From contig JAAZOH010000032.1 of NCBI GenBank assembly GCA_012797845.1, forward strand, positions 1-36,649: a DNA stretch of 36,649 bases, given 5' to 3'. A program made the position numbers and the translations under genes. Positions 1,982 to 2,142 of this stretch are shown here, in pieces. The notes under the pieces are model-generated. The model had not been told where the DNA came from, searched no databases, and worked only from the letters and a program-made list of their open reading frames with translations. How positions within the stretch are numbered: the stretch's first letter is position 1; each line of letters starts with the position of its first letter. Origin of the DNA: Candidatus Beckwithbacteria bacterium. Lineage in GTDB: Bacteria > Patescibacteriota > Microgenomatia > UBA1400 > UBA1449.

Positions 1982-2142
1982 AAAAAACCGCCCGAGCTTT
2001 TTAAAAAGAGCCATAAGGCGGTACCATCTTTTATTATACTTTTCCAGCTATCACGGGCTTACCCGACTTAGTTTTGGCTAAGTAGCGTGTTGTTTTGCAA
2101 CTTATCTGGTGTCAGCAGACTCAAACGCTTTTTCTAAATTAT
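1982..2142 (-). promoter_or_regulatory. T-box riboswitch with minimal specifier hairpin, upstream of aspS
   Basis: The antiterminator is textbook. AAAAGA (2032-2027) pairs with TCTTTT around the 7-nt bulge TGGTACC (2026-2020), and GCC/GGC closes a TTAT loop. The competing terminator is ACCGCC/GGCGGT followed by T6 (stem 2022-2017 with 1992-1987). Upstream lie CGGG-TAAG-CCCG and ACTTAG/CTAAGT hairpins. Instead of the long canonical Stem I there is a 4-bp hairpin, TCTG-CTGACAC-CAGA (2119-2105), whose loop shows the Asp codon GAC (2113-2111). The bulge UGGU is compatible with the acceptor end of a tRNA. Uncharged tRNA-Asp should stabilise the antiterminator and allow aspS transcription. The element aligns with the serS leader at 32555-32702. 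Confidence 0.88.

Follow-up and report, generated by a model that had tools for sequence, protein, structure and literature searches.

T-boxes have been divided into four classes (PMC10482949). Those that act on transcription generally need a long Stem I, which grips the tRNA elbow through its double T-loop motif (IDTM), since, in the reference view, the decision must precede the passage of the polymerase through the terminator (PMC7583486). Class III members have a short Stem I without IDTM, a specifier located in an apical loop of 5-6 nt and a Stem II that is needed, its S-turn being required for tight tRNA binding, and they are mostly translational (PMC10482949). An ultrashort Stem I has been described for ileS of Nocardia farcinica and Mycobacterium tuberculosis (Sherwood et al. 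2015, as reported in PMC7583486). Since a specifier in the apical loop of a short Stem I is thus already published for class III, the novelty of the leaders presented here lies in their combination of features, their breadth and their host phylum. A search of the open-licence literature, subscription papers and preprints lying outside it, found no paper joining T-boxes with Patescibacteria, Parcubacteria or the candidate phyla radiation.

The window (the whole stretch analyzed, 36,649 nucleotides) comes from the family of Candidatus Beckwithbacteria, and its host is therefore the candidate-phylum bacterium that the sequence-only reading had suspected. On the (-) strand, upstream of aspS (1759-2, start at 1759, running to the window edge), it carries at 2142-1982 what is very probably a miniature-Stem-I T-box riboswitch acting by transcription attenuation. 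This reading draws on features observed at the sequence level: the parts of the leader, their recurrence, the agreement of codon with gene and of UGGN with discriminator base, and the overlap of terminator and antiterminator. A sigma70-type promoter, TTGACC-17-TATAAT (2177-2149, (-) strand), shows 11 of 12 consensus matches, the aspS region containing two promoter-like sites where 1.1 are expected by chance. From the position of this promoter, transcription is expected to start at about 2142, so that no larger Stem I would lie 5′ of the miniature one.

Stem I (2129-2084, (-) strand), as delineated from the sequence, its folds and the pattern in relatives, comprises a basal helix, a k-turn-like junction, a specifier hairpin and a side hairpin. 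The basal helix has 5 bp (AGCGU/ACGCU, 2129-2125/2088-2084) and leads into an asymmetric junction, whose 5′ side ends in UUGA and 3′ side in AA and which resembles the T-box k-turn. The specifier hairpin GUCUG-CUGACAC-CAGAU (2120-2104), kept in relatives, is formed by strands 2120-2116 and 2108-2104, which make four Watson-Crick pairs and a terminal G.U, and by an apical loop of 7 nt (2115-2109). This loop holds, as had been claimed, the Asp codon GAC (2113-2111), followed by A2110, the conserved purine 3′ of the specifier; a tRNA-Asp(GUC) is encoded in the genome. A side hairpin, GUUG-CAAAA-CAAC (2101-2089), interrupts the 3′ strand of the junction. The earlier description of Stem I as just a 4-bp hairpin therefore stands for the specifier hairpin and falls short for the whole, which also includes the basal helix, the junction and the side hairpin. 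Five other leaders (L037, L038, L050, L052 and L075) have a side hairpin of unrelated sequence at this position of Stem I; the aspS Stem I of G002 and further leaders have none.

Downstream of Stem I, all on the (-) strand, are found a miniature Stem II of 6 bp with no recognizable S-turn (ACUUAG-CCAAAA-CUAAGU, 2083-2066) and an element near-invariant across aspS and serS leaders, CGGGUAAGCCCGUGAUAGC (CGGG-UAAG-CCCG-UGAUAGC, 2065-2047), which matches Stem IIA/B in its position and its F-box-like tail. The antiterminator (2032-2004), identified from the sequence and by model R1 (see below), consists of helix A1 AAAAGA/UCUUUU (2032-2027/2009-2004), bulge UGGUACC (2026-2020) and helix A2 GCC/GGC closed by UUAU. 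Its T-box UGGU (2026-2023) can in principle pair with the 3′ end of tRNA-Asp, the U forming a wobble with discriminator G73. The intrinsic terminator with its U-tract (2022-1983) shares a strand with the antiterminator; its arms ACCGCC (2022-2017) and GGCGGU (1993-1988), followed by U's, form a hairpin of -13.8 kcal/mol. The T-box antiterminator, which follows the consensus, and the competing terminator announced by the sequence-only reading are thus both present. The fold of the whole 191-nt leader is modest (z = -2.1).

In the mechanism that we propose, the polymerase would start at about 2142 and immediately make a small kinked hairpin exposing GAC in its apical loop. Uncharged tRNA-Asp (anticodon GUC) would pair with this codon while its free NCCA end would pair with UGGU in the antiterminator bulge; the antiterminator, held by the tRNA, would then allow readthrough into aspS. 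With charged tRNA-Asp, whose end could not dock, the terminator at 2022-1983 would form and transcription would stop. tRNA binding, sensing of aminoacylation, control of readthrough and the k-turn at the junction are all inferred here from the leader and its relatives. Against such a switch speak the silence of RF00230 at aspS, the UGGU-G73 wobble and the lack of an S-turn in the aspS Stem II.

Other features were observed between the leader and the gene. A structured element of ~68 nt (TCCGCC..GAGGT AAACGA GGCT GAATA AGCC..ACCTC..GGCGGA; window 1942-1875, (-) strand) lies between the terminator and the aspS start codon. A diverged copy with compensatory changes is found at the same place before glyS (L001, about 1430-1362, (-) strand), and these are the only two copies in the genome. 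The region also contains an inverted repeat of the small-mobile-repeat type (TGTCATCCTGA..TCAGAATGACA, window 1850-1771, (-) strand), and similar repeats precede serS and thrS. Furthermore, AspRS is fused to a C-terminal domain resembling the tRNA deacylase YbaK/EbsC (residues ~478-583), and long AspRS frames of a similar kind are present in several relatives.

The Rfam model of T-boxes, RF00230, has a gathering threshold of 93 bits. It did not match the aspS leader at gathering or relaxed thresholds, even at E = 5, and scored 45.7 bits for the glyS leader and 30.5 bits for the thrS leader of the same genome, both below gathering. It exceeded its cut-off in nine of the 88 genomes of the order; the above-cut-off matches that were inspected are T-boxes with a long Stem I, and most have a Tyr- or Ala-like specifier; weaker matches add argG, argH and glyS leaders with a small Stem I. 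The long- and miniature-Stem-I designs predicted from these sequences coexist in one order. Also in this order, long-Stem-I T-boxes with Tyr-like specifiers (L150-L171) precede several genes, some of which encode TyrRS/TrpRS-like proteins. Since these relatives do include true T-boxes with a long Stem I and the AGAGA and GGUUGGUG motifs, the aspS leader could itself be a class I T-box whose long Stem I has an upper part that was overlooked or is unusually folded. However, its -10 box ends ~20 nt upstream of Stem I, which disfavours a long Stem I, the AGAGA motif is absent and the Stem I hairpins of relatives are equally small, and we consider this explanation highly unlikely.

The recurrence of the miniature leaders was assessed with model R1, a covariance model for which five leaders supplied Stem IIA/B and the antiterminator, Stem I being deliberately excluded. 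This core was matched in 54 of the 88 genomes of the order, which makes contamination unlikely, and in 25 of 379 genomes sampled across the phylum (E ≤ 1e-6). The genes located 3′ of miniature T-boxes are almost always aminoacyl-tRNA synthetase (aaRS) or amino-acid genes, and the phylum-wide leaders include those of tyrS (UAC in the loop), proS (CCG in the loop) and alaS. For analysis, 91 R1 matches were taken with their flanks, and downstream genes were called by motif from the protein start, aspS and serS of the window being checked with NCBIfam. Where the downstream gene is clear, it is ileS (n = 28), serS (n = 20), aspS (n = 15), valS (n = 6), a second ileS type (n = 5), trpS (n = 3), argS (n = 3), proS (n = 2), an aspS2-like gene (n = 2) or an aspartate aminotransferase gene (n = 1). 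Overall, within this order, the predicted miniature design without IDTM is employed in leaders for Asp, Asn, Ser, Ile, Val, Arg, Trp, Pro, Gly and Thr. One match labelled 'Deltaproteobacteria' (L135) has a SerRS close to that of Microgenomates L133 and probably belongs to a mislabelled or mixed bin.

Several of these loci deserve mention for their genes. In L048, L064, L078, L108 and L112, Ile (AUC) T-boxes precede a second class I synthetase with the motif GPITANNPMG, suggesting a second IleRS type. Aspartate aminotransferase-like genes in L052 and L248 are preceded by T-boxes whose specifiers are those of Asp (GAC) and Asn (AAC). A Ser-type T-box (L056/L149, genome G005) precedes a phosphoserine phosphatase-like gene, with serS further downstream.

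The 75 curated Stem I share a short basal helix, a linker that is mostly GUUUGA and a hairpin of 4-7 bp. Of these 75, 63 have a specifier loop of 6-7 nt and 48 a GA or AA joiner, and the pattern RGC-GUUUGA-hairpin-RA-GCY recurs in relatives; GA/GA around an unpaired stretch fits a k-turn, as T-boxes have at this position. Relatives retain the specifier hairpin of the window with altered pairs, as in GCCAG-CUGACAA-CUGGC (G002) and GUUUG-CUGACAA-CAAAC (G038). Between the closest aspS relatives, GUCUG/CAGAC and GCCAG/CUGGC are distinguished by two double changes, with pairing preserved. Pair types vary widely in the hairpin and basal helix, GC, CG, AU and UA all being common at several positions; since the hairpins were selected for pairing, it is this diversity and not the pairing that counts as evidence. 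According to a crude pattern, 23 of 28 ileS leaders and all five leaders of the other ileS type have an S-turn Stem II; a short mini Stem II, with loops like GGUAAUAA, is seen in 14 of 20 serS and eight of 15 aspS leaders. All 15 glyS leaders have GGC in the loop of a small hairpin, and in none of them is a Stem II recognizable. In 14 of these 15, the specifier lies 54-83 nt from the T-box, a spacing that fits a linker plus Stem III, with no recognizable Stem II or IIA/B. For glyS, a consensus fold gave a stable alignment limited to Stem I and the antiterminator.

A permissive test for a codon cognate to the downstream gene in any hairpin gave 77 of 85 leaders as against 61.1 with shuffled gene labels; this test is weak since many hairpins qualify, and a blind two-tier pick was therefore used, in which the hairpin is chosen by its stem and basal-helix score, ignoring the codon. 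In 54 of 85 leaders, the blind-picked hairpin carries the codon cognate to the downstream gene, compared to a mean of 21.1 (SD 3.45, maximum 36) in 100,000 gene-label shuffles, which treat leaders as independent while related leaders are not fully so. Shared ancestry alone would not suffice to explain this agreement, because a gene keeps its codon across families while genes within one genome differ. The codons are Asp GAC, Ser UCC or AGC, Ile AUC, Val GUC, Trp UGG, Arg CGC and Pro CCC, nearly all C-ending. It counts against the proposed switch that for 10 of the 85 automatic curation yielded no two-tier Stem I holding such a codon, although most of those inspected by eye do have it, the loop being larger or interrupted. 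Among the 75 automatic picks, a few are chance hairpins.

These results bear on the possibility that GAC stands in the loop by chance and that the tRNA is selected otherwise, the antiterminator and terminator nevertheless being genuine. Any single leader does have a fair chance of a cognate triplet in some hairpin, as the 21 of 85 obtained with shuffled labels illustrate, but the observed agreement lies well above the shuffle maximum, GGC is found in every glyS loop and the C-ending bias is unlike coincidence, making this explanation extremely unlikely. The base directly 3′ of the codon is A in 56 of 75 curated leaders and the base 5′ of it is U in 44, A in 15 and C in 11. A strict mimicry of the anticodon loop, with U always 5′ of the codon, is thus not upheld; the 7-nt loop, often N-U-codon-A-N, perhaps holds the codon like an anticodon loop.

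The sequence-only reading had staked its proposal on homologous aspS leaders holding GAC or GAU. GAC is indeed found in both family relatives and in most of the order, but the small hairpins of L083 and L121, from one more distant genus, hold AAC, clear in L121 and in a short, less certain hairpin in L083. A true AsnRS gene (asnS) was detected above the curated cut-off in one of the 88 genomes of the order; given this near absence, the AspRS there probably acts on tRNA-Asn as well, with amidation following. Such a non-discriminating AspRS would make Asp-tRNA(Asn), so that AAC would stay cognate.

Model and pattern searches revealed four T-boxes in the genome of the window, others being possible: those of aspS, serS, glyS (L001) and thrS (L002). 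A search of this genome with the exact antiterminator pattern missed true sites. The serS leader, a second miniature T-box in the window (about 32696-32556, (-) strand), reads CAGC-GUUAUGA-GGCAG-CUUCCAA-CUGCC-AA-GCUG, with the loop CUUCCAA, then UGGCACCGC and a terminator. The thrS Stem I, read by eye, is also small (UUCAUC-ACAUAAA-CAGA-ACUCACCAA-UCUG-CUA-GAUGAA), with ACC in its loop. The discriminator base is G73 in tRNA-Asp and tRNA-Ser and U73 in tRNA-Gly and tRNA-Thr, and the UGGN is UGGU for aspS (the wobble), UGGC for serS and UGGA for glyS and thrS; it is therefore able to pair with the discriminator base in all four leaders. Across leaders, the last base of UGGN tends to be C or U for aspS and serS, and U predominates in the leaders of ileS, valS, argS and proS.

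The transcriptional output proposed by the sequence-only reading is supported by the aspS leader and by its relatives: a terminator, defined as a hairpin with a U-tract whose 5′ arm lies inside the antiterminator region, overlaps the antiterminator in 76 of 86 leaders, compared to 3.35 in shuffles. This result has to be weighed against a class III T-box acting on translation, the hairpin with its U-run being incidental, since Stem I fits the description of that mostly translational class (short, apical-loop specifier, no IDTM; PMC10482949). However, what competes with the antiterminator is, far more often than expected, a GC hairpin followed by a U-tract, and in aspS this hairpin lies more than 220 nt upstream of the start codon. 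We therefore regard a translational switch as very unlikely and retain transcription attenuation.

Compared to the known classes, the leaders combine features otherwise found apart. Like class III, they have a short Stem I with a putative k-turn, an apical-loop specifier followed by a purine, no IDTM and a predicted Stem IIA/B pseudoknot, and the ileS members of the Patescibacteria set also have an S-turn Stem II. They differ from class III in: (i) output (a transcription terminator compared to Shine-Dalgarno sequestration in class III ileS), (ii) range (at least ten amino acids in Patescibacteria compared to Ile in Actinobacteria), (iii) loop size (7 nt in aspS and mostly 6-7 nt in relatives compared to 5-6 nt), and (iv) Stem II (mostly without a recognizable S-turn in aspS and serS, and lacking in glyS). 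With class I (B. subtilis tyrS type; RF00230), they share the antiterminator with its UGGN bulge, the competing terminator, Stem IIA/B and the downstream aaRS gene, but they have no long Stem I, no IDTM (AGAGA and UGNRA) and no internal-loop specifier, and score far below the RF00230 gathering threshold. The glyS leaders resemble class II (B. subtilis glyQS) in having a linker in place of Stem II and IIA/B; whereas the Stem I of glyQS is long and bears an IDTM, theirs is a mini-hairpin, and neither known tRNA-clamping device is recognizable in their sequences. A class III-like sensor joined to a class I-like output thus makes a T-box that fits neither class definition in full.

We lean slightly towards the view that the T-boxes of Patescibacteria form a separate transcription-controlling class, in which both tRNA-clamping devices would be shrunk or missing and the tRNA would be captured by the codon loop and the NCCA bulge alone. 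This view is based on the IDTM being found in no miniature leader, on the S-turn being unrecognizable in most aspS and serS leaders and on the lack of Stem II in glyS. If true, it would contradict the need for the IDTM for speed in transcriptional T-boxes, with a large set of terminator-type T-boxes devoid of it, including glycine leaders also devoid of Stem II. Natural RNAs of roughly 115-150 nt would then allow a direct test of the minimal requirement of a T-box. For the Patescibacteria themselves, whose genomes are reduced, these leaders would represent a tRNA-sensing regulon that Rfam annotation at threshold has missed.
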